This document shows, one piece after another, positions 3,001 through 22,352 of a stretch of 24,574 bases of DNA. The stretch spans positions 1 to 24,574 of the IMG/VR virus record IMGVR_UViG_3300028844_005953, one strand, 5' to 3'. The notes beneath the pieces were generated by a model. It worked only from the letters and a program-made list of their open reading frames with translations, made no database searches and had not been told where the DNA came from. Made by a program: the position numbers and the translations under genes. This DNA comes from a virus. Numbering within the stretch: position 1 is the stretch's first letter; each line of letters opens with the position of its first letter.

Positions 3001-6000
3001 GTTATCGAACCACTTATGTTAAATCCTAATGATAATGTTCCACTACCATTTATTGAAATTTGTGAGTTAGATGATGAAAAACTACCACCTTGATTTGAAT
3101 TAAAATCTGCCGCAGTAGAACCATAATTTGTTGTTTTTATAGTTGTACCACTTAATTCAGATTCTTTAATAAATAAATTACTAAAGTTATCTGTAAGTGT
3201 TGCTGGTGTATCATCTACAACATTGATAGTTGCAACAGATGCAGATGAGATAGTTGCGTTATAATTATCTCTAACTTGTACTCTATATTGATAAGAGTTT
3301 ATTAAATCAGAGTTTAATAATACACCTGTTTTTCTTGTTACATTACCACTTGAATCCATTTGGAAAGGATTTTCATGTGGGTCTGTTAATTGAGATGTAC
3401 CACCATATGAACCACTTGATACGGCTGAACCATCTAATAATAATTTATGTAAATCAAATGTTACGAAAGATATACCATCTCCTTCACTATCAGTTGCAGA
3501 TATTGAACCTACTGATGTTCCATTTGATGAATTTTCATTTATTGAACCTACAACTTGTGAATTTACAACTGGTACCAAGTTATCAGTAACATTTACTGTA
3601 ATTGGTAAAAATGTTCTTGAATCAGAATCTTGACCATTTTCAAAATGTTCATCTGAAGCAGTTATACTAAAGTTATAAGTTGTTTGTTGTTCGTAATCTA
3701 ACGAACCTGTATTTTGTCTAATATCTAAATAAGTTCCATAAACAGTAACATCAAAGTGATTGTTATCTATCGAACTTGTTGTAATTGTAATTGTATCACT
3801 TTCTGTATCAGTAAAGAAAACTCTTTTTACTAAAGTATCATTTGCAGAACTTTCATTTAAGTTTGAGGTTACCGAAGTAATAATATTTCCACTAACTGAA
3901 GTTTCTCTAAATTTAGGTGCTTCGTTTGGTGTTACAATTATGTAAATATCTTTTTCTACTGTTGAATTAAAAGTATCAGTTGCAGTAACTTTTACTAAAT
4001 GACCATGACCACCACTAACTGAATCTGTATTAAATGAAGATGATTCTGCTAATGCATTTAATGTCATTATACCACCACTTGAAACTCTTACTAAATCATC
4101 AGTATAAGATGAAGCAGTTCCAAATGTTAAAGATTGTCCTTCAGGGTCAGTTGCAACTAATTGTACTATTTGAGCACTACTTGCTGAATATTCTGAAATT
4201 GTTTGATTACCTGTTGTAATTGATGGTTCACTATTTGGATAAAATACTGCATTTAAGAAATCTTGTACCGAACCACTTGTACCAGGATTAAATGATGATG
4301 TAAAGAATGCTGGTAACTTATCTTGTGAAATAATTCTATTTCCATTAAAGGTTACATCTCCACTTGCAGATGAACTAATGATTACATTTCCACTACCAGA
4401 TGTGATTGTTGTTCCACCTTGTCCTATAAATGAACCACTAAATACATTTGTACCATCTAAAGTTCTAAGTACCGAACCACTAACTACACCAGTACCATCA
4501 AGTGTTCTTAAAACAGAACCACTTACTACTCCTGTTCCATCTAAAGTTCTAAGTACACTTCCACTAACTACGCCAGTTCCATCTAAAGTTCTTAATACTG
4601 AACCACTAACAATATTACTACCATCAGTAATTTGGGTTGAACCACTAACTAATCCACTTGGTACATTTGTAAGTGTTGTAAAATCAGATGAACCACCACT
4701 ACCAAATCCACTTGAAGCGGCTGAAGCTGAAATGTATGTATCTGTAATTACTGAAGTTATTTGTGCTGAACCACTTACTACTCCTGTTGGTAAACCTGTT
4801 GTTATATCAGTTGAAATTACCCAATATCCATCGTAATAGATATAAAGATTACCATCATCTGATTTCCACCATAAATCTCCTTGTGATGGAGAACCTGGTG
4901 CTGAATCAGAAACAGTTACACTTGCACTACCACCACTTGCTGAAGAAGATATTTCAAAATTATCTCCAACTTGATTTATTGTAATATTTGAACCAGCAAC
5001 TAATGAACCACTAAATACACCAGTACTATCTAATGTACGAAGTACACTTCCACTTACTACACCAGTACCATCAAGTGTTCTTAAAACAGAACCACTTACA
5101 ATATTACTACCATCAGTAATTTGAGTTGAACCACTAATTACTCCACTTGGTAGTAAAGATTCAATAGAACCACTTAATACATCTTCAGTATTTAATTTTG
5201 TTTTTATTGTTGTATCAATTGAAGAAGTAAAAGATTCAATAGAATCTAATCTTACTCCTGCTGATTGAGTAAATGCGTTTAGGTGTGATATATTTGCATG
5301 GTCACCAATATTACTAATTCTTGTATCAAACGAAGCAGAATCAGTTGTATAAGTTGATGTTTGTAAGTATCTTGAATCGTATGAAGAAGTTAATTGAGAT
5401 GAACCACTAACTGTACCACTTGGAATATCAGTATGTGAACCTGATGTAAATCCGAATGCAGTAATCTGAGCAGAACCACTAATTGTTCCTGCTGGCACAG
5501 AACCACCACCACTTGCCGAAGATGATATAATAAAGTTATCACCATCTTGATTTATTGTTACATTTGTTCCAGCTACAAGTGAACCACTAAAGATTCCACT
5601 TCCATCTGTGATTTGAGTTGAACCACTAATAGTTCCACTTGGAAGTTGTGAACTACCACTTATCACTCCACTTGGAAGTGATGAAATTACTTGTGCCGAA
5701 GATGATATTGTTCCACTTGGAATATCGGTATGAGAACCACTTGTAAATCCAAATGATGTTATTTGTGCAGAACCACTAATTGTTCCTGCTGGTACTGTAC
5801 CACTACCTGTTGGTATGGTTACAGTATTTCCATCTGATATTGTAAGTTGGTCTCCACTAATAGAAAGTGATTGAGTATCCGAACCTGTATTATCAGTTGC
5901 GTTTTCTAAAGTATCTAATCTTGAATCTACCGAAGATGAAAATGAAGTAAATGTTGAACCACTTATAATACCACTTGGGAGTTGGTCAACAATCGAACCA

Positions 6001-6599
6001 CTTAAAATTCCACTACCATCTGTAATTTGTGCTGATGATGAAACTAAACCACTTGGTTTACCACTTAATCCACTAAATGTTATTTGAGATGAACCACTAA
6101 CAGTTCCACTTGGTAAATAATTTGTTATTGAACCACTTAAAACACCAGTTCCATCTAAAGTTCTTAATACAGAACCACTAACTAATCCACTTGGAATATT
6201 TTGTAAGTTTACATTCCAATCAGCACCACTACCACTTGCGGATATACCACTAATTCTTGTATCAAAAGAAGCAGAATCAGTATAATAAGATGCTGTAAAT
6301 GTATTTAGGTGAGATATATCAGTTGAACCACCTCCACCAGTTGAAGATATTGTGATTATATTTGAAGAAGATGCAATAGTAGTATTTGAACCACCTTTGA
6401 AAATAGGAGTACCTGTAATGTTTGAATAAGGGATATTAGTTAATCCACTACCATCACCAATAAAAGAACCACTAAAAGAACCAGATACACCACTTGCACC
6501 TGTTAAGTTAACCGAACCAGCCTCTACTTGGAAATCTCCTTGTATGACCGAGGCGGTTACTACACCTTCTATCTGTTTACTTTGAATTAATGTTGCCAT
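1..6599 (-). CDS. Giant repetitive tail fibre / cadherin-like adhesin, 3' end outside the window
   Basis: An open frame runs without a stop from ATG at 6599 to the window edge (at least 2199 codons, begins MATLIQSKQIEG). Residues 1 to about 780 are Gly/Ser-rich fibre sequence with many LPSGxxSGSxQIT phrases, tandem 14-residue units VLRTLDGTGVVSGS, and a segment DLWWKSDDGNLYIYYDGYW of the kind seen in phage fibres. From about residue 790 the protein becomes a chain of cadherin-like or Ig-like beta domains (phrases such as LDYEQ, DTESD and NVTDN), ending in 211-residue repeats anchored by ITFRDQYDNIGSG. One repeat is interrupted at about residues 1835-2147 by an alpha-helical, His/Trp-rich domain containing EHLMHTIHQYG. 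The gene follows the 6601-6966 stop by one base, so translation is probably coupled. It most likely forms a long host-recognition fibre or whisker on the virion. The family is inferred from repeat character, not a specific homologue. Confidence 0.85.
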   Translation of the reverse strand, partial: MATLIQSKQIEGVVTASVIQGDFQVEAGSVNLTGASGVSGSFSGSFIGDGSGLTNIPYSNITGTPIFKGGSNTTIASSSNIITISSTGGGGSTDISHLNTFTASYYTDSASFDTRISGISASGSGADWNVNLQNIPSGLVSGSVLRTLDGTGVLSGSITNYLPSGTVSGSSQITFSGLSGKPSGLVSSSAQITDGSGILSGSIVDQLPSGIISGSTFTSFSSSVDSRLDTLENATDNTGSDTQSLSISGDQLTISDGNTVTIPTGSGTVPAGTISGSAQITSFGFTSGSHTDIPSGTISSSAQVISSLPSGVISGSSQLPSGTISGSTQITDGSGIFSGSLVAGTNVTINQDGDNFIISSSASGGGSVPAGTISGSAQITAFGFTSGSHTDIPSGTVSGSSQLTSSYDSRYLQTSTYTTDSASFDTRISNIGDHANISHLNAFTQSAGVRLDSIESFTSSIDTTIKTKLNTEDVLSGSIESLLPSGVISGSTQITDGSNIVSGSVLRTLDGTGVVSGSVLRTLDSTGVFSGSLVAGSNITINQVGDNFEISSSASGGSASVTVSDSAPGSPSQGDLWWKSDDGNLYIYYDGYWVISTDITTGLPTGVVSGSAQITSVITDTYISASAASSGFGSGGSSDFTTLTNVPSGLVSGSTQITDGSNIVSGSVLRTLDGTGVVSGSVLRTLDGTGVVSGSVLRTLDGTGVVSGSVLRTLDGTNVFSGSFIGQGGTTITSGSGNVIISSSASGDVTFNGNRIISQDKLPAFFTSSFNPGTSGSVQDFLNAVFYPNSEPSITTGNQTISEYSASSAQIVQLVATDPEGQSLTFGTASSYTDDLVRVSSGGIMTLNALAESSSFNTDSVSGGHGHLVKVTATDTFNSTVEKDIYIIVTPNEAPKFRETSVSGNIITSVTSNLNESSANDTLVKRVFFTDTESDTITITTSSIDNNHFDVTVYGTYLDIRQNTGSLDYEQQTTYNFSITASDEHFENGQDSDSRTFLPITVNVTDNLVPVVNSQVVGSINENSSNGTSVGSISATDSEGDGISFVTFDLHKLLLDGSAVSSGSYGGTSQLTDPHENPFQMDSSGNVTRKTGVLLNSDLINSYQYRVQVRDNYNATISSASVATINVVDDTPATLTDNFSNLFIKESELSGTTIKTTNYGSTAADFNSNQGGSFSSSNSQISINGSGTLSLGFNISGSITQSGETIDSTITFTNTFGTTTNQNISVSVIENHFPSASFTNQTSNFNSNLATTNTNMVLVSITDTEGDTPYSASLSGTDAGKLNINYTNSNSSSLYIRANENLSAGTITYNLKVTDSYSKSSDYTGRTFTIAAADTGTLGGDTTSYIIESSESGSTIRDASGFGSGNASQLSVSYSPSYGSPVVQSYTSSNAAIAVDNSGNLTLGVNISGSVTQSGEIISSTITFRDQYDNIGSGTVNVNVFANHFPSASFTQNTSIYNENQMVSGSLVESFTITDTESDVPYSISLSGTDASKIDIVPQNSNTSSVQLKTKQDLAGGSYTYTVDVSDSYSKTSQYDRTVTIASADTGSITTNGTFYIIESALNGDFIFTNSNGRTGTQGDLGVSYSPNYGSQVVQSFTSSNALIDIDSNGNLSAGGNISGSGNTDGDTITSTITYRDQYDNIGSGSITVNIAENFAPTVSSTSTSNLNTNQATGSEQILNLLLSDTESDAIPNGGLSFSGFNSTYFTPSIATPNMRLLVNNTSVPAGTYAYTASIQDTHGFSTTTVSNTFTVAQASTGSLGGDTAIYIIESAESGSVFRDQTGFNQGNAAQLSVSYSPNYGSQVVQSYTSSRQGISVDSSGNLTAGYDFSGSVTSTDYTSTALVSDSTNSTLYGKSLHVNGIKVVQGAATGSQSAVPDAFTEKVAQTIKLMVTSSGADINDTDQANMIGILKGETGTWHSGYPTAQRILRGAGSDYSPNPLIDSNYSSYPGLQNFQDSHATDDMIWYLNSSATSGSGDDDIVEVIEHLMHTIHQYGVRGAVSGSYNALSWDPDTDSDWNTRELYLAIKEAVDDSVFDISDYGDASYNTASTFKLIAKEYLYLLNFNMWEYSSLWDGGSLSPEWNDNSRTPSGIQTNNPLGYALYNKYIKPVLTKPSKTVLQNIFQDGDVGDPTVAGSSGYTPEVGTGLISKITFRDQYDNIGSGSVTATIFGNSSPVASFTQTSGYESDNATSGSDAGA
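160..1097 (-). other. Inserted His-rich domain (about 308 aa) splitting one fibre repeat
   Basis: In the other repeats the phrase SGSVT is followed within about 15 residues by ITFRDQYDN. Here SGSVT (about 1098-1112) and ITFRDQYDN (about 121-146) are separated by about 310 residues. The anchor spacing is 1557 bp instead of 633 bp, an excess of 924 bp or 308 codons. The insert has GETGTWHSGYPTAQRIL, then EVIEHLMHTIHQYG (E1986, H1987, H1990, H1993), then a helix- and aromatic-rich part. The spaced histidines suggest a metal site, but the order EHxxHxxH is not the classical HExxH. An enzymatic or metal-stabilised receptor-binding role is inference only. Confidence 0.7.
1098..2965 (-). repeat. 633-bp (211-aa) tandem domain repeats in the fibre
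   Basis: Equivalent positions ending a beta-strand (FRDQYDN, YRDQYDN and the degenerate FTNTFGT) start at 1678, 2311 and 2944, exactly 633 bp apart. A fourth anchor at 121 belongs to the unit split by the insertion. Each unit carries, in order, ENxFPSASF or a variant, a DTESD-type acidic turn, a YTxxVxDSYSK-type strand, YIIES, SVSYSPxYGS and SGNLxxGxxISGS. The DNA around the anchors (about 20 bases from 2311 and from 121) is nearly or fully identical, which indicates recent duplication or gene conversion. Confidence 0.8.
4431..4598 (-). repeat. Four tandem 42-bp units in the fibre gene
   Basis: Four consecutive in-frame 42-bp units each encode a close variant of VLRTLDGTGVVSGS; the last reads VLRTLDGTNVFSGS. 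The units differ mainly by synonymous changes, so the peptide is better conserved than the DNA. Related copies lie at 5004-5087 and 6129-6170. Confidence 0.9.
5004..5087 (-). repeat. Two tandem 42-bp units in the fibre gene
   Basis: Two in-frame copies of the VLRTLDGTGVVSGS unit, the second with DST in place of DGT and ending VFSGS. Both clusters end in VFSGS and are flanked on the other side by GSNIVSGS, so larger blocks appear to have been copied. Confidence 0.88.
6129..6170 (-). repeat. Single 42-bp unit in the fibre gene
   Basis: One copy of the 14-residue unit (VLRTLDGTGVLSGS) near the protein N-terminus, related to the tandem clusters at 4431-4598 and 5004-5087. Confidence 0.8.
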
Positions 6600-10310: not shown

Positions 10311-11930
10311 TTATACTAAGTTTAAGTCTTTAACATAGATTTTACCATAGAATTCTGGTCTTACCATTTTCTTAGCATATCTAGTCATTACACCTCTACG
10401 AGGAGTAAAGTTAGTTGGGTCATATACAAGAGGTGTCATGATTAATGGTACATACGGTGCATAAACAGCTCCAGTTTCAAGGAAATTACTTCCTTTAAAT
10501 CCTAACAAGATTTCGTTTGAAGTCATGTAAGGGTTTTTGTAAACTGTATATCTGTTTGCAATTGAACCAACAGTAGATACACCAGCTGCGAAAGATGAAG
10601 CATCTTTATCAGCAGAAACTGTAAATCCTGGGATTGATTCTAAAATTGTACATACATCAGGAGAAGCAACAATAAAGTTAGCTCCACCTCTTAAAGTTAA
10701 TTGGTGAATCTTGTTCGAAACTTTGTTAAGTTTAGCACCTAAAGTTTGGAACCAAGAGTTCTTAGTATAAGCAGCAGAGTTAGAACCTGCAACCCACGAT
10801 GAACCATTGTACTCTTCACCTAAAGTTACTGACCAGTACTCAGTTGTTAAAGCGTTAGCTTTTAACATATCTAAGATTTCTAAGTCAATCTCTAATGAGA
10901 TGTACTCAGATAACATAGAAGTTAATTCAGCTTCTGCATCAATTGAGTGGTAAGCGTTAAGGTCTTGAGCAAGTTCAGGTGTCCATACAGCCTTTAATTT
11001 TCTTGTCTTAGCAACAATTGCTTCAGACTTCAATTCAAGGTCAACTTCAGGAATACCTAAATCATCACCTACATTAGAAACACCACCAGCGTTTCCATCT
11101 TCAAAGTCACCTCTGTTTTCAGCGACTGGTTGTTGTGCATACTTAACAGTTAAATCATCAGCTTTTACAGCACCTGCTCCACAGTTCGCGAAGAATGTGA
11201 ATGCACCAGCTGCAGTTGCAGATGAGTGTGCTGGGTAAAATGCATCAGCACTTGAGAAATCAGATGAAGAAATGTAGAAACTTCTTACACCATCAATATC
11301 AGGTCTTGTTAAGTCATTTGTTGAACCATTGTCAAAAGTAATTTTTTGAATCGCACCTGCAGCTATTGAAGCTGAAAGTGATGAATCGAATCCTACTTCT
11401 GCCCATGATGCAGTTGCGAATGTTAAATCTGCAACAGCAACATCATCAGATACATCATTAATTGAGTATCCAAATCTACCTTCACCGTATAAACCATTTT
11501 CAGCAACATTAGTTGAACCTAAGTCCGAACCATCACCACCGAATAAAGATTTTCCAGAGAATCCAGGATTACCTGGTTGAGCCGTACCATACTTAAAGTC
11601 TAAATAGAATATAAGACCTGATGGTAAGTTCATTGGTTGTACACTAACGAATTCTTTCGATGCGATTTCACCGAAGATACGTCTTACTAATGGAAGGGCT
11701 ACCCCACTCCATTCTTCACTACCAGCTGATGTACCAGTCTGTGTAGCTTCATCAAGCAATTGTTTTGCTTGGTTTTCTAACAATACAGAAATCTGTGATT
11801 GTTCTCTTTCTCCTAAACCTTCAAGAAGTCCAGTTTGTTCCCATTTTCCTTTCAGTTCTCTTGTCTCTGCAAGCATTACTGATTGTGGGTTCTTTCCTTC
11901 CATAAGTTTAGATAAATCAAAATTTGCCAT
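10311..11930 (-). CDS. 23: Major capsid protein (gp23-like), 539 aa
   Basis: T4-type HK97-fold capsid protein, close to the T4 gp23 length of 521. Recognisable family segments are the N-terminal MLAETRELKGKWEQTGLLEG (about 19-38), PLVRRIFGEIASKEFVSVQP (about 80-99), SGLIFYLDFKYG, then TRKLKAVWTPELAQDLNAYH, AEAELTSMLSEYISLEIDLE, the P-domain-like NRYTVYKNPYMTSNEILLGF and YAPYVPLIMTPL, and a C-terminal RRGVMTRYAKKMVRPEF. T4 gp23 loses its N-terminus to the prohead protease at an (I/L)-x-E site; LAE (20-22) and LLE (50-52) are candidates here. A strong AAGGAG lies 8 bases before ATG. It follows the scaffold gene by 25 bases and ends at a strong terminator. No separate vertex protein (gp24) is present in the window. 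Confidence 0.97.
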   Translation of the reverse strand: MANFDLSKLMEGKNPQSVMLAETRELKGKWEQTGLLEGLGEREQSQISVLLENQAKQLLDEATQTGTSAGSEEWSGVALPLVRRIFGEIASKEFVSVQPMNLPSGLIFYLDFKYGTAQPGNPGFSGKSLFGGDGSDLGSTNVAENGLYGEGRFGYSINDVSDDVAVADLTFATASWAEVGFDSSLSASIAAGAIQKITFDNGSTNDLTRPDIDGVRSFYISSSDFSSADAFYPAHSSATAAGAFTFFANCGAGAVKADDLTVKYAQQPVAENRGDFEDGNAGGVSNVGDDLGIPEVDLELKSEAIVAKTRKLKAVWTPELAQDLNAYHSIDAEAELTSMLSEYISLEIDLEILDMLKANALTTEYWSVTLGEEYNGSSWVAGSNSAAYTKNSWFQTLGAKLNKVSNKIHQLTLRGGANFIVASPDVCTILESIPGFTVSADKDASSFAAGVSTVGSIANRYTVYKNPYMTSNEILLGFKGSNFLETGAVYAPYVPLIMTPLVYDPTNFTPRRGVMTRYAKKMVRPEFYGKIYVKDLNLV

Positions 11931-11955: not shown

Positions 11956-13194
11956 TTAGTTAATGTTAGCAAGTTTTTTGAATCTATCAGCCATCGTATT
12001 AGTTGATTCAGCAATTACTTCCTTTTTAGGAGCAGTTGATGCAACTGGTTTAGATGCGAATGATTCGTTTATTTTCTTACTAGCTTTTTGTTTTTTTGCA
12101 GTTCCATTAAATTTGAAACTCTCAGCCAAAGTTGAGAATACTAATTTAACTTCTCTTACATTACCTGTTCTGTCTAATGTTTCAACAACTTTATGTTTTT
12201 GTTCGTTGTTTAAATCATAAGCTCTGAACAATTTGTTCGTATAAAGAAGTTTTGCATTCAATAAGTTAACCTCATTGATAGTTTTCTTCAATTCTTTGAT
12301 AGTACTAATCGCTTCGTTTAACTCAGCTTTAGTTTCTTCCAATGCATTGTTTTCTTCAACTTCTTCTTTTTCTTCTTCAGAATCTTCACCTTCAGATACC
12401 TCATCAGAACCATATCCCATTTCTCTTAGGATTTCTTCTAAATCGATTTCATCATCTAAATCTTCTTCTTCAGAATCTTCTTCTTCAGAATAAGTTTCTT
12501 CAACTTCTTCTTCGTGTTTCTCATCTTCATGAGAATCAACAGCGTCATCAGCGATATCTCCAACTTCTTCTTTTTCCTCACTATCAAGTTCTTCTTCGTG
12601 GTCTGCACCTTCTTCTTCAGAAAGTTCAGCCTCTAGTTCTTTGATAATTGATTCTAAATCAAGTTCGTCATCTACTGAATCTTCTTCTTCGTGAGAATCT
12701 TCTTCGTAGTTTTCTTCTACTGAATCTTCTTCTTCTTCTGATTCTTCGTTTTCACTAATTTCAGCAGCTTTCTCAGAATTTTCATCCTCAGAACCTACTT
12801 CACTAGACTCAACATCCGTATCAGGATTTCCTTGAGCTACATCTGATGATGAGTTAGCATCATCTGCTGGTTGCTTATTGTCTCCATCACCGATATCAGA
12901 AGCACCTGCATCAGGAGCATCATCTTTATCGTACTCTTCATTAACTTCCTCTTCGTCCTTATCTTCACCTTCAGCAGTAATTTCTTCCTCACCGTCAGCG
13001 TTGTAAGTTCCCTCTTCTACTTCTTCTTTATCTTCATCTTCTCCTTCAATTTCTTGCTGAAGTTTTTGAGATAAGATAGACTGTAGTCTAGGAGTGAAAG
13101 CCTCTTCAAGAGCGATTTTGGCATTAGCAATTGCAGTTTCTCTAACAGCTTTTGCATCAGCGATAGCCTCTTTTAACAAATTTGAATTTGCCAT
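11956..13194 (-). CDS. 22: Prohead core scaffolding protein (gp22-like), 412 aa
   Basis: Internal scaffold that would shape the prohead and then be degraded by the gp21 protease. After a basic N-terminal helix (about 1-55) the protein is extraordinarily Glu/Asp/Ser-rich (about 50-285), with two copies of a DDExDLExIxxE phrase in the acidic tract. A coiled coil and conserved core follow: ELNEAISTIKELKKTINEVN, LNAKLLYTNKLF (312-323), then GNVREVKLVFSTLAES. The C-terminus has KINE (374-377) and VIAE (to 396) before the tail MADRFKKLANIN; both fit gp21 cleavage sites and this tail type is common in T4-like core proteins. T4 gp22 is about 269 residues, so the acidic tract is expanded. It is preceded by a 147-base leader with a hairpin and by AAAGG 8 bases before ATG. 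Confidence 0.88.
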   Translation of the reverse strand: MANSNLLKEAIADAKAVRETAIANAKIALEEAFTPRLQSILSQKLQQEIEGEDEDKEEVEEGTYNADGEEEITAEGEDKDEEEVNEEYDKDDAPDAGASDIGDGDNKQPADDANSSSDVAQGNPDTDVESSEVGSEDENSEKAAEISENEESEEEEDSVEENYEEDSHEEEDSVDDELDLESIIKELEAELSEEEGADHEEELDSEEKEEVGDIADDAVDSHEDEKHEEEVEETYSEEEDSEEEDLDDEIDLEEILREMGYGSDEVSEGEDSEEEKEEVEENNALEETKAELNEAISTIKELKKTINEVNLLNAKLLYTNKLFRAYDLNNEQKHKVVETLDRTGNVREVKLVFSTLAESFKFNGTAKKQKASKKINESFASKPVASTAPKKEVIAESTNTMADRFKKLANIN

Positions 13195-13368: not shown

Positions 13369-13674
13369 TTATTTTTGAGTAGATTTATTTTTATTTTGTG
13401 GTTTATTTGATTTTTTTCTTTTCTTTTTTCTTAAAAGTAATGAGGCTTTTGGGTCTCCGTTTTCTATTTTTTCTAATATAGTTAACTTCTGTTGTTCTCT
13501 GATTGCCTGTTGTTTTGCTTTTCTACGAACTGTTTTGGGTTTAATGTAGTATTTTCTTTCTCTCAGTTCTAGTAGGTGTTCAGATTCCATAACACCTCTT
13601 TTGAATTTTTTTAATGCTCTGTTAATATCTCCTTTGATAACTTTAACAGAAACTAATTTTTTCTTTTTACTCAT
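13369..13674 (-). CDS. rpsU: Phage-encoded ribosomal protein bS21, 101 aa
   Basis: Residues about 7-62 match the small-subunit protein bS21: LVSVKVIKGDINRALKKFKR, then LLELRERKYYIKPKTVRRKA, corresponding to the family features VxVxxxExxxxALrrFKR and LxExRrRxxYxKPxxxRkrkk. The remaining 40 residues are a Lys/Arg-rich extension, longer than a typical bacterial bS21 (about 60-70 aa). bS21 sits by the anti-Shine-Dalgarno end of 16S rRNA on the 30S platform and influences initiation. Phages of aquatic bacteria are known to carry this gene. Here it sits inside the head operon between internal-head genes and the scaffold, with its own TATATTTATA element 23 bases upstream, so it is probably expressed late. 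The ribosome site AGGAG is only about one base from ATG, unusually tight. Confidence 0.85.
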   Translation of the reverse strand: MSKKKKLVSVKVIKGDINRALKKFKRGVMESEHLLELRERKYYIKPKTVRRKAKQQAIREQQKLTILEKIENGDPKASLLLRKKKRKKSNKPQNKNKSTQK

Positions 13675-13720: not shown

Positions 13721-14065
13721 TTAAGAACCCTTACCAGTTCCACTTTTTTTACCACCTGTATGAGTAGAAACATTGATAGGTTTTTTACCTTGCCCTCTTG
13801 ATTGAGAACCACCTCTATTTGCTTTGTTTTGTGCTGCTCTTTTTCTACGAGTTGCAGATTCTTTTTCTTTTTTACTCATGGATGCGGCTTTCTTGGCAGG
13901 AACACATTTAGCATATCCTTTTTTCTTACCACTTGTACCACATGGTGGGTGTTTACCACTCTTATCTTTTTTACCAATGTTTACCCACTTTGATTTGAAC
14001 CAGTTTTTCAAATCTTCATTTGTAGTTTCTTCAAATATCTCGTCTATGATATCTTGGAGTTTCAT
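13721..14065 (-). CDS. Small basic Cys-containing head-region protein, 114 aa
   Basis: Function not established. A short acidic N-terminus (MKLQDIIDEIFEETTNEDLK) is followed by a domain with WFKSKWVNIGKKDKSGKHPP, C42, GTSGKKKGYAKC (C54), then KKEKESATRRKRAAQNKANR and a Gly/Lys/Ser-rich tail. This W-V-x-I-G ... CG ... GYxxCxP ... K pattern recurs as a small basic module in aquatic T4-like phages (I recall DUF5872-type annotations, unverified). The high Lys/Arg content suggests nucleic-acid binding or packaging inside the head. The start overlaps the upstream stop (TAATG at 14065), so it is translationally coupled to the 363-aa gene. Confidence 0.8.
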   Translation of the reverse strand: MKLQDIIDEIFEETTNEDLKNWFKSKWVNIGKKDKSGKHPPCGTSGKKKGYAKCVPAKKAASMSKKEKESATRRKRAAQNKANRGGSQSRGQGKKPINVSTHTGGKKSGTGKGS

Positions 14066-15156
14066 TATTTACCTAGTTGGAATAATTTTTCTTCTGCAGC
14101 TGCATTAGTTCTGTAATCGTAGTGTTTTGGATTTAGTCCAAAATCTCTTAGGGATTTTTCTAACCAAATTCTATACTTTCTTTTACCATACTTTTTTTCC
14201 ATGGTATCAAGTACATCGTAAAATAGTTTTTCGTGTTTAACTTTTTTTACTAAATCTTTGATTTGTTTTTTATCTTCGTTTGTATAATATAAATGTCTAT
14301 ACTTTGATGATTCTTTTACTGATTCACCGAATCCATAAACATATCCACCTTTGTGTAAACTGTTAACGAACTTTGCTAAATCTTTTTTGTTTCTGAAAAT
14401 TTGGATATCAAAGAAATCACTACCATCTTTGTGTTTCTTTTTACCATCGTGGTAAGAGATTGTATATTTTGATTTACCAATACCATCTTTTTGGTAGTAT
14501 CTTTTTTTACCTTCGTTTACTGATTCTTTTACAGGTACACCATCTTTGGTTATTCTATAATCAACCCACCCATCTTGTTTTGCTAATGATTTGGCATCTT
14601 TAGAAATAGCCTTTATCATCATTTTATCTATATTAGGATTGTGTGTTGTTTTTGTTAAAGATGCTTTTTTGAATTTTCTATCTTTTTTAGATGATTTATA
14701 TTCAATACCATAAGTTATTGCTGCTTCGTTTACTGATTCATAAATTGGTTTACCTGTTTTTTTATCTATTCTTTTTGGTTTATACAATTCCCAATCAGAT
14801 GTTTTGGCATTCCATATAAGAGCACTGCCATCGGACATTATTACAAATTCTTTACCTTTGATTTTTTTCTCAACACCTTTGCCCATCTTCATATACCAAT
14901 TTAATTTTTTATATAAATTAGTATCATTTACATATTTTTCTGCCCAATTACTACCCTTACCAACTTCGTTTATTGCGTATTTGGCTTCTTTAGAATCCCA
15001 ATCTCTTTTAGACATTGAACCAACTGATTCAATACCGCTCTTTGATAAAATTTTATCGGTATTTTTCTTTAAGAACATATCTACTGCTCTTTTAGACTTA
15101 AATACTTTAAGTAATTTTTTACCTTTTCTTGTTTCTATATAAGATACGAATTCCAT
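14065..15156 (-). CDS. Multi-module basic protein with ESVNE linkers, 363 aa (possible internal head polyprotein)
   Basis: No single known family covers this protein. It reads as five short modules separated by near-identical linkers: AINE (61-64), ESVNE (140-144), ESVNE (211-215) and ESVKE (278-282). The modules are 64-81 residues each, nearly all strongly basic and mutually unlike in sequence; for example module 2 has KEFVIMSDGSALIWNAKTSD and module 4 has GIGKSKYTISYHDGKKKHKD. The linkers fit the I/L/V-x-E| preference of T4-type prohead protease, whose gene is 2.6 kb upstream in the same cluster. I infer a precursor for several small internal head proteins. The alternative is an uncleaved fusion protein with flexible linkers. 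A strong TTAAGGAG precedes the ATG; the gene overlaps the 114-aa gene by one base. Confidence 0.85.
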   Translation of the reverse strand: MEFVSYIETRKGKKLLKVFKSKRAVDMFLKKNTDKILSKSGIESVGSMSKRDWDSKEAKYAINEVGKGSNWAEKYVNDTNLYKKLNWYMKMGKGVEKKIKGKEFVIMSDGSALIWNAKTSDWELYKPKRIDKKTGKPIYESVNEAAITYGIEYKSSKKDRKFKKASLTKTTHNPNIDKMMIKAISKDAKSLAKQDGWVDYRITKDGVPVKESVNEGKKRYYQKDGIGKSKYTISYHDGKKKHKDGSDFFDIQIFRNKKDLAKFVNSLHKGGYVYGFGESVKESSKYRHLYYTNEDKKQIKDLVKKVKHEKLFYDVLDTMEKKYGKRKYRIWLEKSLRDFGLNPKHYDYRTNAAAEEKLFQLGK

Positions 15157-15165
15157 TGTTACTCC

Positions 15166-16140
15166 TTAACACTTTTTCCAACCACCACCAGCTGCTTTGT
15201 ATTTTTTTGCTGCCCAACCATTTGCGTATGCAGATGGGTAAACATCAAACTTTTGTTTAGCTTGTGATTTGTAAGATGACCACTTAGAGGGGTTTGTTGG
15301 ACAATTTTTTTCCATTAAACGAGATACTTTTTTACCAAACTCATAAAGTTTAGTTTCTTCTTCGTTTAAATCCGATTCTCTTAATACTGTAACTATGTTT
15401 CCATTAGAAGTTCTGTTGTGAACTGTAACGGGTTGTTCGTTTAGAGATTCCATAAATACAGTTCTACCATATCCATCTTCAATAGAAATCGAATTTCTTC
15501 TTCCATGCTTTTTATTTAATTTGTGATACATCTTAATCGCATCTTCAACTTTTTCATAAGATTTTGGGGAGTTAGCAACTATCCTATTTCCATTTCTAGC
15601 TATAATAGTATATGGTCCACCTCTTTCTTTTTTCTTTATAATTTTTTTGATTTCTGAATCAGAAACTTCATTTACTGATTCGTTACATCCACCCTCTGTT
15701 GTTCCTTTACATCCACAACCACAATCTTCTTTAGATTCGTTGATACCTAATCTGTTTTTCATTTCATCTTCAGTAATCTCACCGAACTTATAGTATCTTG
15801 AAAGGATGTGTCCCATATCTTCATACAACCCTGCCATTCTTTGGTCAAGGTTTCTAGCTTCTACTGCAACTTTATCGAATTGTTTACCCAACTTATCTAA
15901 TTCACTCATGTTTCTCTTTACAGTATGTTTATCGAACCAATCACCAGCTTCTTTGATTGCAAGTGTTCTAGCAGCTTCAGTAATACCACCAAGGGTTTCT
16001 GCCACTTGAGTAATATCAGATTTTCTATCCATTGATTCTTGATACTTGTTGTAAGTTGAAACAATTTCAAGAAAATGTCTTTTAACCTCATTAGATAGAG
16101 GTCTTTCTTCGTTTTCTTTTAATAGTTGGGTTAGTTTCAT
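15166..16140 (-). CDS. Multi-module head-region protein with Cys cluster and ESVNE/ESLNE linkers, 324 aa
   Basis: Module 1 (1-135) is helical and looks like a conserved family in aquatic T4-like phages (segments HFLEIVSTYNKYQE, AGDWFDKHTVKRNM, RMAGLYEDMGHILSRYY). It ends at INE (133-135). A Cys cluster follows (C140, C142, C144, C152) and then ESVNE (154-158). Module 2 (about 159-235) is a small basic alpha/beta domain (YTIIARNGNRIVANSPKSYE) ending ESLNE (231-235). A short piece ends SDLNE (256-260). Module 3 (261-324) has CPTNPSKWSSYKSQAKQKFD and PSAYANGWAAKKYKAAGGGW, a basic domain I know from many aquatic phage proteins. Probable head-internal role, possibly processed by gp21; the function of each module is unknown. 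AAGGAG lies 7 bases before ATG. Confidence 0.85.
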   Translation of the reverse strand: MKLTQLLKENEERPLSNEVKRHFLEIVSTYNKYQESMDRKSDITQVAETLGGITEAARTLAIKEAGDWFDKHTVKRNMSELDKLGKQFDKVAVEARNLDQRMAGLYEDMGHILSRYYKFGEITEDEMKNRLGINESKEDCGCGCKGTTEGGCNESVNEVSDSEIKKIIKKKERGGPYTIIARNGNRIVANSPKSYEKVEDAIKMYHKLNKKHGRRNSISIEDGYGRTVFMESLNEQPVTVHNRTSNGNIVTVLRESDLNEEETKLYEFGKKVSRLMEKNCPTNPSKWSSYKSQAKQKFDVYPSAYANGWAAKKYKAAGGGWKKC

Positions 16141-16150
16141 TGTTCTCTCC

Positions 16151-17578
16151 TTAAAATAATTTTTTTAATTTTTTATCACCATATACATCAGCGAAATACC
16201 ATTTCTTATCTTTCATATTGTATAAATATACATATTCTGCTCCACCACTTCTATCTGCAGTATCTACATATCCTCCAAAATCTTTTAAATTACCTTTAGT
16301 TGGTTTTCCACTTTTGTAGTATTCAATATCTTTATCATTATAGATTCCTCTTGCACCACCTTTTTTAATAAGTTGAAGAACATCTTTTTCATTCTTCATA
16401 TGTTTTTTAAGACCTGGTTTCATATTTGATGGATAACCATCGTAGTGAACATATGCTGATGCAATCTTACCACTTCTATCAATGATACCAACTTGTGAAC
16501 GAGTTCCTTCGTTGATTATATTTTCTTTAACAAGATTTGAAATAGAAATTCTACCTTCTTTTTTCATGTATTCTTTCTTATCAAAGATAGATTCGATTTT
16601 ATCAGCAAACTCACTCATACCATTAGCTCTTAGTTGTTTGGTTAAAGTTCCTACTGATTTAATACCATCCCATTCAGCTGCATCTGAAGTTTCTCTTCCT
16701 AATGCCGATGAATAATCATCTCTCTCAGTATATGTAGAAGCATATTTTTGTCTGATTACATCCATTTTCTCCTGATAATCATCATCGTCTATTGAAGGGT
16801 AATCTGGTCTTTTTGAAAGTTCTGGTTTATCTTCTAATACTGCAATTAACTCTCTTGCTTCACTATGGAAGTTAGAGTTTTGTAATGCCGAATAAACAGC
16901 TCTACCCATTGCAACTTTAAAATCTTCTTCACCCATTTTTTCAGGAGTAATACCATATTTTTTAGAAATCTCAGCAGCAACTTTTTCAGCTTGAGGGTCT
17001 GATTCTAATTTTGGTTTAGATGGTTCTGATTTAGGTTCATCTTTAGAATCACTAGATTTACTAATAGCTTGTTTTATAAGTCCTTTTAAATCATCTACTT
17101 CAGCATCGATTATATCTTGTTGCATTCCCCACTCTTCATTATCCTCATCCCTATCAATATCTTCTAAATCTATTTGTAGGTTTGCCAAACCTTCTAAATT
17201 ATCTTTTATTTCTTGATAATCCTCATCGGATATCTTACCTTCGAGGTCATCAACTGTATCTTGGAAATCATCTGCAGCATATAAAGAATTAAATTCCTTT
17301 TCTTCTCTATCTTTTTTCATTTTCTTTAGGCGTTCCTTTGAATCTCTATCACTATCTCTTTTGAAGATGTTTACTTTAGGTTTATCTTCTCCACCAGGAA
17401 CATCAACTGCGGTATCTTTATCTGATTTTCTTTTTTCATGAGTACCTGCTTTTACAGCAGCATCTCTAGCTGCTTTTGTTTTAAATACAGAAACATTACC
17501 AGTTTCTTTACTTGTAGCAGTAAAAGCCTTTTCTTCTTGTAAAGGTTTTAAATCGATAAGTCCACCCAATTTAATCAT
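16151..17578 (-). CDS. Multi-module head-region protein, 475 aa
   Basis: Function unknown. The N-terminal module has LKPLQEEKAFTATSKETGN and SVFKTKAARDAAVKAGTHEK (about 10-50), a short domain seen in other aquatic phage proteins. A very acidic helical middle (about 95-180) follows, then a helical domain (about 195-335) with KYGITPEKMGEEDFKVAMGR. After IINE (354-357) comes a 118-residue C-terminal domain with TRSQVGIIDRSGKIASAYVH and YDGYPSNMKPGLKKHMKNEK. The INE boundary falls exactly where this domain begins, as in the neighbouring proteins, and could be a prohead protease cut. The start overlaps the 61-aa gene by four bases (ATGA); AAGGAG is 11 bases upstream. It ends 10 bases before the next gene. 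Confidence 0.85.
   Translation of the reverse strand: MIKLGGLIDLKPLQEEKAFTATSKETGNVSVFKTKAARDAAVKAGTHEKRKSDKDTAVDVPGGEDKPKVNIFKRDSDRDSKERLKKMKKDREEKEFNSLYAADDFQDTVDDLEGKISDEDYQEIKDNLEGLANLQIDLEDIDRDEDNEEWGMQQDIIDAEVDDLKGLIKQAISKSSDSKDEPKSEPSKPKLESDPQAEKVAAEISKKYGITPEKMGEEDFKVAMGRAVYSALQNSNFHSEARELIAVLEDKPELSKRPDYPSIDDDDYQEKMDVIRQKYASTYTERDDYSSALGRETSDAAEWDGIKSVGTLTKQLRANGMSEFADKIESIFDKKEYMKKEGRISISNLVKENIINEGTRSQVGIIDRSGKIASAYVHYDGYPSNMKPGLKKHMKNEKDVLQLIKKGGARGIYNDKDIEYYKSGKPTKGNLKDFGGYVDTADRSGGAEYVYLYNMKDKKWYFADVYGDKKLKKLF
16221..16230 (-). promoter_or_regulatory. TATATTTATA inside the 3' end of the 475-aa gene
   Basis: Exact copy of the intergenic promoter-like 10-mer, 81 bases before the start of the 324-aa gene. 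It lies in coding sequence (Val-Tyr-Leu-Tyr region), so it may be chance, or an internal promoter. Confidence 0.25.
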
Positions 17579-17764: not shown

Positions 17765-18358
17765 TTAATTTAATTCTGTTATAATTTCTCTCATCATATC
17801 TTGTGCCTTACACCATTCATTACAAACTGCTGTTTGTGATTGAAGTTGTTTGTTCACAGATTCGTTCATAGGAACCATAAATGCTCCATGAGTAGATGGG
17901 TTAGAAACAAAATCCCAACCAATCAATTCAAAATCTTCACCTACTTGAACTTTACCACCTGATAAAGGTTCTACTGAACCCATACCTCTTGATGATATAC
18001 CTAATAGAATACCTGCTTGTAGAAGTTCTTTTAAGATGTTACCACTTGGAGTTGGTAAAATCTCAACTGTTCCTACTAAATCATCACCATCCCAATGAAT
18101 TTCTCTTACATTGTGAGATACATTCTTTAAGTTGATTACAGAAGAATCAGGATGGTCTAATTCACCTAATGCTCTTCTTTCTTTAATAAGTGTTTCGTAT
18201 TTCTTTGCCTCTCTCATAAGGATAGGTTTAGGATATATTCTACCATTCTGATTTTCTGCACCAGCTCTTTGTAGAATACCCTTAACGATAGTTCTTCCAC
18301 TATCATCTTCGTTTACCCTTCCTTCGAATAATCTTGTTTCTATTAATAAATTGTTCAT
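17765..18358 (-). CDS. 21: Prohead core protein protease (gp21-like), 197 aa
   Basis: Serine protease that would mature the prohead by cutting scaffold, capsid and internal proteins. Family features are a start near LFEGRVNEDDSGR, NQNGRIYPKPIL, the His motif LGELDHPDSS (H69), VGTVEILPTPSG, the Ser motif GISSRGMGSV (S122/S123), and WDFVSNPSTHGAF. The His/Ser pair matches the T4 gp21 catalytic residues by motif. I start at ATG 18358 (MNNLLIETRL) rather than an upstream TTG at 18370, because GGGGAG lies four bases before this ATG and the upstream gene ends in TAATG there. T4 gp21 is about 212 residues. Its probable substrates are encoded around it and carry I/L/V-x-E sites. Confidence 0.95.
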   Translation of the reverse strand: MNNLLIETRLFEGRVNEDDSGRTIVKGILQRAGAENQNGRIYPKPILMREAKKYETLIKERRALGELDHPDSSVINLKNVSHNVREIHWDGDDLVGTVEILPTPSGNILKELLQAGILLGISSRGMGSVEPLSGGKVQVGEDFELIGWDFVSNPSTHGAFMVPMNESVNKQLQSQTAVCNEWCKAQDMMREIITELN

Positions 18359-18534
18359 TATGCTCCCCAAGTTTTTCTTTTCTTAAACAAATCAAAAAAG
18401 ATTGCAGATACCTCTTGTCTGATGATTTTTCTTATTAAATCTTTATCAGATTCGGTGAGTTCTTCGTTAATTGTTCCTTTTTTAACATTAACGATTTCCT
18501 CATTGATGATATCATACAACTCTCTCTTAGTCAT
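18358..18534 (-). CDS. Small head-region protein, 58 aa
   Basis: A short gene encoding MTKRELYDIINEEIVN, then TINEELTESDKDLIRKIIRQ, then VSAIFFDLFKKRKTWGA. The C-terminal part (DLIRKIIRQEVSAIFFDLF) is like small proteins encoded beside gp21 in other aquatic T4-like phages, from memory. It fills the only space between the 109-aa gene (four bases upstream) and the protease (TAATG overlap), with no frame break, so it is real in all likelihood. It has two INE triplets. The role is unknown; a core or protease partner is possible. Confidence 0.75.
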   Translation of the reverse strand: MTKRELYDIINEEIVNVKKGTINEELTESDKDLIRKIIRQEVSAIFFDLFKKRKTWGA

Positions 18535-18538
18535 TTTT

Positions 18539-18868
18539 TTACTTTACATTAGATGAATCAGAAGCATCTTTAGATGGTTTCTTATTATCACCTTTACCAA
18601 TTTCAGATGATTTAGGATTTACTTCATCAAGTTCTTGTGAACCAAAAGTAGGTCCTTGTGCTCCTCTTCCAAATCTTTCATTTTTACTTCCTCTACCTTT
18701 CCAAGTTTTTTCAATCTTGTTAAAGAATGATTTCTTTTCTTCATCAGACATAGAAGGAATAGATTTACCAGCTTTTTCTAATGCTTTTTTAAAAAACTTT
18801 TGGTATTCAGATTCTTCTAATAAAGTTTCTCTGACTATATTTTTAAGTTGTTCTCTTGTTATTTTCAT
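18539..18868 (-). CDS. Small head-region protein, 109 aa
   Basis: The N-terminus MKITREQLKNIVRETLLEE is helical. It is followed by a compact domain YQKFFKKALEKAGKSIPSMS then DEEKKSFFNKIEKTWKGRGS, a short helical module I recall from other aquatic T4-like phage core proteins (unverified). The last 45 residues are Gly/Ser/Lys-rich and probably disordered. The start overlaps the 158-aa gene by four bases (ATGA). The function is not known. A minor prohead core component is the best inference from the position between portal and protease, where T4 has the small core genes 67 and 68. Confidence 0.75.
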   Translation of the reverse strand: MKITREQLKNIVRETLLEESEYQKFFKKALEKAGKSIPSMSDEEKKSFFNKIEKTWKGRGSKNERFGRGAQGPTFGSQELDEVNPKSSEIGKGDNKKPSKDASDSSNVK

Positions 18869-19341
18869 TTTTCAATCTCCTGTATTGTTTTAGCGATTTT
18901 GATTAGTTTCTCTTTTATACTATAAATATGTCTATTTGTTCTTTTCCAATATTTATCAGAATCCAACTCATTAATCGTTTTTATTTTATTATACCAATTG
19001 AAAAACTTCTCAACTTCTCTTAATTGATACTTTAATTCTTTTAGACCCATTGCCATCTTCTTATGAGGATGCATTGATTCATCGTTTTTTAATTCTAACC
19101 AACGATTTACTGGTCTTTTTACTTTAGCTTCGTTGATATTATCAATATCACCACCCACAACTGAATAACCAAGTTGTGTTGCTATTTTCTTTTTTCTTTT
19201 TTTGTGTTTGTTTCCTTTGGAGAATGCGTAAGGAGTTTGATAACCATCTACATTACCTGTTGTAGTGGCTTCATCTAATTCTTTTTGAACTTCATCAAGA
19301 ATTTCATCTAAGATTTCTTTAAGATTTTTTTCCATTGACAT
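18865..19341 (-). CDS. Modular head-region protein, 158 aa
   Basis: An acidic helical N-terminus (MSMEKNLKEILDEILDEVQK, to LDE at 22-24) is followed by ATTTGNVDGYQTPYAFSKGN and a Lys-rich run. Then INE (69-71) leads into a basic helical C-terminal module (WLELKNDESMHPHKKMAMGL and following). The TTTGxxxGYxTPYAF phrase is familiar from T4-like phage head-region proteins. Both LDE and INE fall at module borders and fit gp21 cleavage sites. I use ATG 19341, since AAGGAG lies 8 bases upstream; it overlaps the previous gene by 23 bases. The function is unknown; probably a prohead core or internal protein. Confidence 0.8.
   Translation of the reverse strand: MSMEKNLKEILDEILDEVQKELDEATTTGNVDGYQTPYAFSKGNKHKKRKKKIATQLGYSVVGGDIDNINEAKVKRPVNRWLELKNDESMHPHKKMAMGLKELKYQLREVEKFFNWYNKIKTINELDSDKYWKRTNRHIYSIKEKLIKIAKTIQEIEK
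18921..18930 (-). promoter_or_regulatory. CATATTTATA inside the 158-aa gene
   Basis: A nine-of-ten match to the intergenic promoter-like element, 53 bases before the start of the 109-aa gene but within coding sequence. It could be chance. Confidence 0.2.
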
Positions 19342-21971: not shown

Positions 21972-22352
21972 TTACCATGCTCTACATGACCAGTATCTAG
22001 CTTTGTGTCTTGGACCTGGATTATCACAATTATGTCTTGCTCTAAAAGATTTTCTCCTTTCAGGATTATTCTTTTTGATTGTCATTGTTTTCTCTCCACC
22101 TTTTCCTTTATGACCAAAGTTTACTTTTACTACATTACCTTGGGGATTTTTAACATATACTTTGAACTTTTTAACATCACCCTGCATTGGTTTACCAAGT
22201 TTTACTTTTCTTCCTTGATATTCTGCCTCGTTGATATCAGATTTATACGATTTCATGAATTCACAAAATTCTTTTATATCGTGATAGTTTTCTACAAAGT
22301 ACTCATTACAGTAACTTTCGTTTTCATTAAGTAATTTTTTCATTGAAATCAT
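21972..22352 (-). CDS. Small protein with basic WSCRAW-type C-terminal domain, 126 aa
   Basis: An N-terminal acidic helical part (1-42) ends SDINE. A basic domain then begins: YQGRKVKLGKPMQGD, VYVKNPQGNVVKVNFG, RRKSFRARHNCDNPGPRHKA (C109) and a terminal YWSCRAW (C123). I recall this ending as a recurrent module in aquatic T4-like phage proteins, function unknown; the paired Cys could bind metal. The INE (40-42) directly before the domain is like the linkers in the 324-, 363- and 475-aa proteins and fits a prohead protease site. It lies between terminase and portal, where T4 has tail sheath and tube genes. AAGGAG is 8 bases before ATG, with a TATATTTATA element 18 bases upstream. Confidence 0.82.
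   Translation of the reverse strand: MISMKKLLNENESYCNEYFVENYHDIKEFCEFMKSYKSDINEAEYQGRKVKLGKPMQGDVKKFKVYVKNPQGNVVKVNFGHKGKGGEKTMTIKKNNPERRKSFRARHNCDNPGPRHKARYWSCRAW

Follow-up and report, generated by a model that had tools for sequence, protein, structure and literature searches.

A 24,574-nt viral genome fragment (IMGVR_UViG_3300028844_005953, positions 1 to 24,574; hereafter the window) encodes, next to a gp21 prohead protease, multi-module proteins whose modules are separated by short tags of the form [V/I/L]-x-E. Related viruses carry the same modules in other combinations, with borders at the tags, and one of the tags, ESVNE, is conserved as a 15-nt DNA sequence. We think it likely that the products of these genes are polyproteins that gp21 processes into injected internal proteins, and that recombination at the repeat encoding the cleavage site reshuffles this payload.

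Genomic context of the multi-module genes

The minus strand of the window encodes, in order, the gp17 terminase, a 126-aa protein, the gp20 portal, proteins of 290, 158, 109 and 58 aa, the gp21 protease, proteins of 61, 475, 324, 363, 114 and 101 aa, a gp22-like scaffold, gp23, neck-like genes and a 2199-aa fibre (Table 1). T4 names other than gp21 and gp23 were given from position and sequence character, and the gp22-like scaffold had no match in PHROG. A T4-type prohead maturation system, with its Peptidase_S77 protease and gp23-type capsid gene, adjoins the multi-module genes. Between these genes and gp22 lies a homologue of ribosomal protein S21 (13369-13674, minus strand; Pfam 2.2e-11); an rpsU gene is found near gp21 in Microcystis phage Mel-JY01 too. 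The fibre-like protein (3-6599, minus strand) contains many SGSVLRTLDGTGVVSGSV-type repeats and is truncated by the window end.

Table 1. Features of the head-gene region and the multi-module proteins. Slashes mark predicted cuts.
Feature	Position	Strand	Basis
gp23 major capsid protein	10311..11930	-	phrog_138 3.8e-69
gp23 LLDE58-61/A, position of T4 maturation cleavage	11748..11759	-	aligned by eye to T4 site
gp22-like scaffold, carries INE and IAE sites	11956..13194	-	position, acidic composition
363-aa five-module protein, predicted polyprotein	14065..15156	-	ORF; modules seen separately in other contigs
363-aa module 5, residues 283-363, C-terminal bookend	14068..14310	-	20 homologues; family last in 9/9 ORFs
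363-aa module 4, residues 216-282, C-terminal ESVKE	14311..14511	-	24 homologues, varied neighbours
363-aa module 3, residues 145-215	14512..14724	-	homologues in L006, L007, L012
ESVNE linker copy 2, DNA GAATCAGTAAACGAA	14512..14526	-	
363-aa module 2, residues 65-144	14725..14964	-	exact borders in L005, L071
ESVNE linker copy 1, DNA GAATCAGTAAACGAA	14725..14739	-	
363-aa module 1, residues 1-64, C-terminal AINE	14965..15156	-	homologues in L012, L024
324-aa protein: core-like N part, module 159-235, DUF5872-like C piece 261-324	15166..16140	-	
DLNE260 of 324-aa protein, weak predicted cleavage site	15361..15372	-	
ESLNE235 of 324-aa protein, predicted cleavage site	15436..15450	-	module match in L009 stops at 235
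ESVNE158 of 324-aa protein, predicted cleavage site	15667..15681	-	module matches in L009, L025 begin at 154/156
INE135 of 324-aa protein, predicted cleavage site	15736..15744	-	
475-aa protein: acidic scaffold-like N part, basic C-terminal domain 358-475	16151..17578	-	
phrog_1987-like domain of 475-aa protein	16154..16507	-	phrog_1987 match at 358-468
IINE354-357 of 475-aa protein, predicted cleavage site	16508..16519	-	conservation in 21 sequences
gp21 prohead protease (Peptidase_S77)	17765..18370	-	Pfam 3.1e-26; phrog_207 6.9e-49
158-aa protein, acceptor with empty cassette site	18865..19341	-	inserts at same point in relatives
INE69-71 of 158-aa protein, empty insertion and predicted cleavage site	19129..19137	-	
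126-aa protein, leader and module (phrog_7595)	21972..22352	-	
INE40-42 of 126-aa protein, leader/module border	22227..22235	-	stand-alone homologues start here

Tags border modules in the window proteins

An earlier note on this DNA had divided the 363-aa protein at AINE64, ESVNE144, ESVNE215 and ESVKE282. Each motif is indeed at that residue and borders pieces of 64-81 residues. The motifs that the note had listed in the 324-aa protein (INE135, ESVNE158, ESLNE235 and DLNE260) are likewise all in place. A few sites look incidental, VKE211 and DLNE260 among them. The Mel-JY01 homologue of the core part of this protein (residues 15-118) stops there, without the added module. In the 475-aa protein, the N part (pI 4.7) partially resembles gp22 in BLAST, and IINE357 directly precedes a distinct domain of pI 9.6, as had been proposed. 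Among 21 sequences, including stand-alone genes of this domain, E357 is invariant and I355 and N356 are at least 90% conserved.

The placement of INE at module borders in the 158- and 126-aa proteins (INE71 and INE42) also held, as inserts or stand-alone starts fall at those points. The 158-aa gene of the window reads DNINE/AKVKRPVNRW and its site is empty; locus L038 is identical there. In most other relatives, the two halves are parted exactly at INE/AKVKRP by 71-444 aa, representing one to several modules, and the right junction of filled sites is usually GAATCAGTAAACGAA directly followed by GCTAAAGTA, or a close variant.

Compared with shuffled sequences, [VIL][NK]E was significantly in excess in the 363-aa (5 vs 0.93, P 0.0005), 324-aa (6 vs 1.02), 158-aa (5 vs 0.80) and 126-aa proteins (3 vs 0.32), was not enriched in the 475-aa protein alone (2 vs 1.24, P 0.36), and was absent from the window's gp23, gp20 and gp17. 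Tag enrichment in one genome alone is suggestive only; stronger evidence comes from relatives, where module homologues start and end at tags.

Modules are exchanged at the tags

Searches of IMG/VR with the 363- and 475-aa proteins yielded 40 loci, in which matches break at tags. With the addition of loci matching the tag DNA, the matches listed comprised 121 non-redundant viral ORFs with at least 471 tag-separated pieces in at least 193 families; among these matches, the commoner families are flanked on one side by as many as 22 different neighbours. The joining of modules by ESVNE, ESLNE or INE, as first noted, is thus real and of larger extent (about 120 related ORFs).

The modules of the 363-aa protein illustrate the exchange. 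Module 1 has a 98% identical homologue in L012 with the same module 2 next to it, and in L024 it is followed by module 4 instead. Module 2 is found with exact borders within the 158-aa homologue of L005 (96% identity) and in L071 (95%), and module 3 (97-100% identity, exact borders) lies between three different neighbour pairs. When near-identical modules have different neighbours, nucleotide identity is at least 88% in the module, about 0.9 on average in the linker and about 0.3 a few bases beyond. In the unsplit test, 45% of internal match ends fell within 5 residues of a tag (random 10.5%; mode at the tag's last residue, 0), as did 34% of internal match starts (random 10.4%; mode at its first residue, -5). 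Homologue alignment, suggested in the earlier note as a check for a kept linker and swapped modules, hence reveals exchange, borders at tags and a conserved linker. Certain families are always last (12/12, 11/11 and 9/9) and one is first in 29 of 31 cases, so the genes look like fixed ends around a variable interior.

In contigs of 187-276 kb, tags lie near gp21-gp23; several of these contigs have a second multi-module locus with tags as well. All tags of a contig are on one strand, and the reversed control pattern gave a single match over the ten records. A 340-kb record with a distant gp21 (G004) has a single tag. The second ESVNE loci away from gp21-gp23 are at L279 4529-9978, L280 3564-6035, L281 4331-5581 and L282 2257-4734. 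In several proteins (L037, L030 and L033, e.g., L033 8573-9931), a recurrent piece, FASDAQRKAAFANGYEEKGKKKN, directly precedes ESVNE and looks like a small unit.

As tblastn of the 363-aa protein gave no match in isolate phages, no isolate with exactly this system is known here. The 15-mer is also absent from the stretches examined of Mel-JY01 and immuto, the closest phages by gp21. In the T4-like isolates HTVC008M, Melnitz-3 and C48C1 (L289 1-2980, L292 1-1488 and L293 44-1165), some proteins also seem to consist of several modules, with borders that are weaker and of LxE type and without an obvious ESVNE repeat; these isolates are usable for virion proteomics.

The ESVNE tag is conserved as DNA

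The earlier note described ESVNE as a protein-level motif; its conservation as DNA is new. In the first set, which was collected by protein, 67 of the 80 distinct ESVNE contexts use GAATCAGTAAACGAA, where the codon usage of long ORFs in these loci predicts roughly 5% (product of codon frequencies), and all 87 exact 15-mers are in frame. In the larger set, GAATCAGTAAACGAA follows members of at least 99 unrelated families, at least 187 times among the matches listed; since this set was partly collected with the exact 16-mer, its counts are biased, and the protein-collected set shows the same pattern. For module pairs below 50% amino acid identity, the codons at identical residues agree in 93% of cases in the linker versus 58% in the body. 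Information falls at once outside the 15 bases, except for a G at +1, and [VIL]NE sites without ES have ordinary codon use (AAC 52, AAT 41). A constant-repeat cassette has the same DNA repeat at unit borders and a break of identity there, and both are seen here. It is as if one 15-letter sequence marked both the cut in the protein and the point of module exchange. A role of the 15-mer at the RNA level or as an internal start was also considered but not adopted.

A motif as short as [VIL]xE does arise by chance in other proteins, and the pattern might accordingly reflect chance motifs and ordinary domain shuffling with no tie to head maturation. Against this stand the fixed 15-mer after so many families, the border statistics, and the empty and occupied sites. 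Moreover, the 16-mer occurs in 112 stretches of GTDB genomes, once each among those listed, where simple arithmetic predicts about 120 by chance, while virus contigs hold up to six copies together among the matches listed. We regard this explanation as highly improbable, and its chance component as already strongly disfavoured.

Recombination alone would suffice to explain why ESVNE is conserved as DNA. The tags could then be flexible linkers and recombination seams only, and the proteins would stay uncut, their modules strung like beads as they are in many polyvalent proteins; N4 virion RNA polymerase is packaged unprocessed (PMC5512222). However, the hydrophobic-x-Glu core is kept where the DNA and the spacing have changed (ESVVNE, ESIIKE and ESLNE), it also occurs at leader/module borders that lack the DNA repeat, and the tags have the same form as the gp23 maturation sites. 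Uncut proteins therefore appear unlikely to us.

Predicted cleavage by gp21

LLDE58-61/A in the window gp23 was placed by eye in alignment with the T4 gp23 maturation site. At the aligned position, gp23 proteins from the same contigs read LLDE/A (window), LVSE/A, LVTE/A or LVKE/A, and those of Mel-JY01 and immuto read LISE/A and IVSE/A. As these sites show V at P3 and A or S at P1', both are probably used by this protease group. The residue after ESVNE is A or G in 57 of 80 cases. T4 gp21 cuts after L/I-X-E (PMC9026906), and a V at P3 falls outside this motif, which counts against gp21 as the protease; the gp23 sites of these phages do contain V.

Two modules stand alone in phages outside this group, with a Met that coincides with the predicted cut or lies one residue ahead of it. 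Cyanophage homologues of the domain after IINE357 start MGTRSR or MATRSR, and in one, whose annotated start is extended, MATRAL occurs internally. For the module after INE42 of the 126-aa protein, the stand-alone versions begin MAKYQG (Pelagibacter phage Aegir) and MATYKG (Roseobacter phage CRP-902). An N-terminal leader ending in a gp21-type site is found in stand-alone forms and in several first modules; in module 1 of the 363-aa protein, a T4-like targeting leader is not obvious. In loci L030-L037, the phrog_1987-like domain is a stand-alone gene whose leader ends INE, reading MIKLTDLLKEGIINE directly followed by GTRSQ, and at the point of INE42 the T4-like phages C48C1, HTVC008M and immuto carry a leader whose last residues are LTE, LEE or LDE.

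AlphaFold2 models, another check that had been suggested, do not speak against cleavage at the tags. In the 475-aa protein, residues 340-357 have low pLDDT directly before a folded domain. In the 363-aa protein, residues 277-287 have low confidence and 215 is in coil; the site at 144, overlapping a weak, low-confidence strand, is ambiguous. The models are weak (pTM 0.31 and 0.38), as expected for loosely joined modules, though weak alignments could have the same effect, and fold searches of both against PDB gave nothing below E 0.001. For the 363-aa model, two alternative alignments were rejected because they misplaced module fragments. The A1 alignment, with a few misplaced rows, was used instead, and modules 1 and 2 are consequently poorly modelled.

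The proposal that gp21 cuts multi-module precursors at the tags draws support from the borders, the swapping, the basicity, the gp20/gp21/gp22/gp23 neighbourhood, the gp23 site and the stand-alone starts; the cut itself stays a prediction from sequence. That the [V/I/L]-x-E tags are gp21 cleavage sites is, in our assessment, a well-supported, unproven prediction.

Character and possible role of the modules

The pieces had been described as mostly basic, and this extends beyond the five modules of the 363-aa protein (pI 9.6-9.8): 265 of 280 interior modules of 40-130 aa have a pI above 8. Among 146 representative modules, only a few match Pfam, in just eight families (DUF3008, CTP_transf_like, DUF5661, Zeta_toxin, DUF5872 and marginal others), and PADLOC returned two marginal matches. 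Large enzyme-like pieces in such proteins include a P-loop (GGAGSGKG) kinase-like domain and a ligase-like nucleotidyltransferase motif (EKTDGQ), at L280 3564-6035, L285 4488-6389 and L282 5912-7999.

The location of the genes between gp21 and gp22, the acidic and partly gp22-like N part of the 475-aa protein and the conserved core-like N part of the 324-aa protein would also suit core or scaffold proteins, whose gp21-cut pieces mostly leave the head before packaging, like those of T4 gp22, gp67 and gp68. The modules would then not be payload. Yet exchange affects the interior modules, which are strongly basic and very diverse, and spares the end modules, and some pieces are enzyme-like, all of which makes a scaffold role quite improbable. 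By analogy with T4 IPI-IPIII, which are small, are injected and act as inhibitors of different GmrSD restriction enzymes (PMC12373910, PMC3012670), the modules are most likely DNA-associated payload, and counter-defence is a plausible use.

A proposed model of exchangeable payload

Taken as polyproteins, these genes of a T4-like phage would encode precursors of internal head proteins, which the conserved end modules may carry into the prohead core. The phage's gp21 would cut after the Glu of the [V/I/L]-x-E tags, freeing small basic proteins that would be kept with the DNA and injected, as T4 IPI-IPIII are. Modules are swapped in frame at the ESVNE repeat, as the exchange and its breakpoints show, presumably through homologous recombination; ordinary phage recombination would suffice. 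Because swaps at the repeat are in frame, each would regenerate the cleavage site and the payload could change quickly. Evenly balanced, in our judgement, is a broader reading as a protein-level cassette system, in which the fixed in-frame 15-nt repeat is both recombination address and protease-site code, and payload domains are inserted, deleted and exchanged with frame and processing kept. These domains would form a common pool of counter-defence and takeover proteins for injection, and a dedicated recombination enzyme might be involved.

If true, this would reveal how a virus can renew its protein payload, with units exchanged at the very codons for the cut. Searching for the repeat would give access to a large number of unannotated phage proteins that enter cells as infection begins, what T4-like phages inject would become directly testable by synthesis of single modules, and the tag and end modules could serve to package chosen proteins.

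Comparison with known systems

T4 internal proteins are gp21 substrates bearing a CTS, and are highly diverse among relatives behind a shared packaging signal (PMC3012670, PMC9026906, PMC12373910). Like the pieces described here, IPI, IPII and IPIII are small (mature IPI has 76 residues) and are released by gp21 after L/I-X-E, a release that is predicted in our case (PMC3012670, PMC9026906, PMC12373910). Whereas T4 encodes one internal protein per gene, several are encoded per gene here with a repeated tag between them, and the unit of exchange is a module inside a reading frame. No match to an internal protein was found in PHROG or Pfam among the matches listed. By analogy, the system would work like T4 internal proteins fused into precursors, with packaging predicted, and it is not a member of the IP family by sequence. 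Cleavage of one precursor at multiple sites by gp21 is known from the T4 core proteins gp22, gp67 and gp68 (PMC9026906) and is predicted here, but their fragments are scaffold remnants that are mostly removed, in contrast to the distinct, swapped domains of these proteins.

The polyvalent proteins of Iyer et al. 2017, including P1 DarA/DdrB and N4 vRNAP, combine many effector-like domains in one phage polypeptide that is delivered with the DNA and, as here, undergo rapid domain shuffling; for DdrB, processing by its own metallopeptidase domain is predicted. Unlike here, no constant inter-domain tag with fixed DNA was found in the passages considered (PMC5512222 for all these points). Effector or peptidase domains of the polyvalent type were not detected in the window proteins, and few of the 146 modules had enzyme-like matches (CTP_transf_like and Zeta_toxin). 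Cleavage at several sites, as in gp22, and injected proteins of many domains, as in the polyvalent proteins and P1 DarA/DdrB, are already known. In the open-access literature, to which our search was confined (subscription papers lay outside it), we found no description of such polyproteins, nor of one in-frame DNA repeat that is both swap point and predicted protease site. Short conserved DNA is known to guide the exchange of adjacent phage segments, as in the tail-fibre motifs of T-even phages and the intergenic shuffling cassettes of T4-type phages. The repeat described here resembles these in guiding exchange and differs in lying inside reading frames, where it encodes a predicted protease site.
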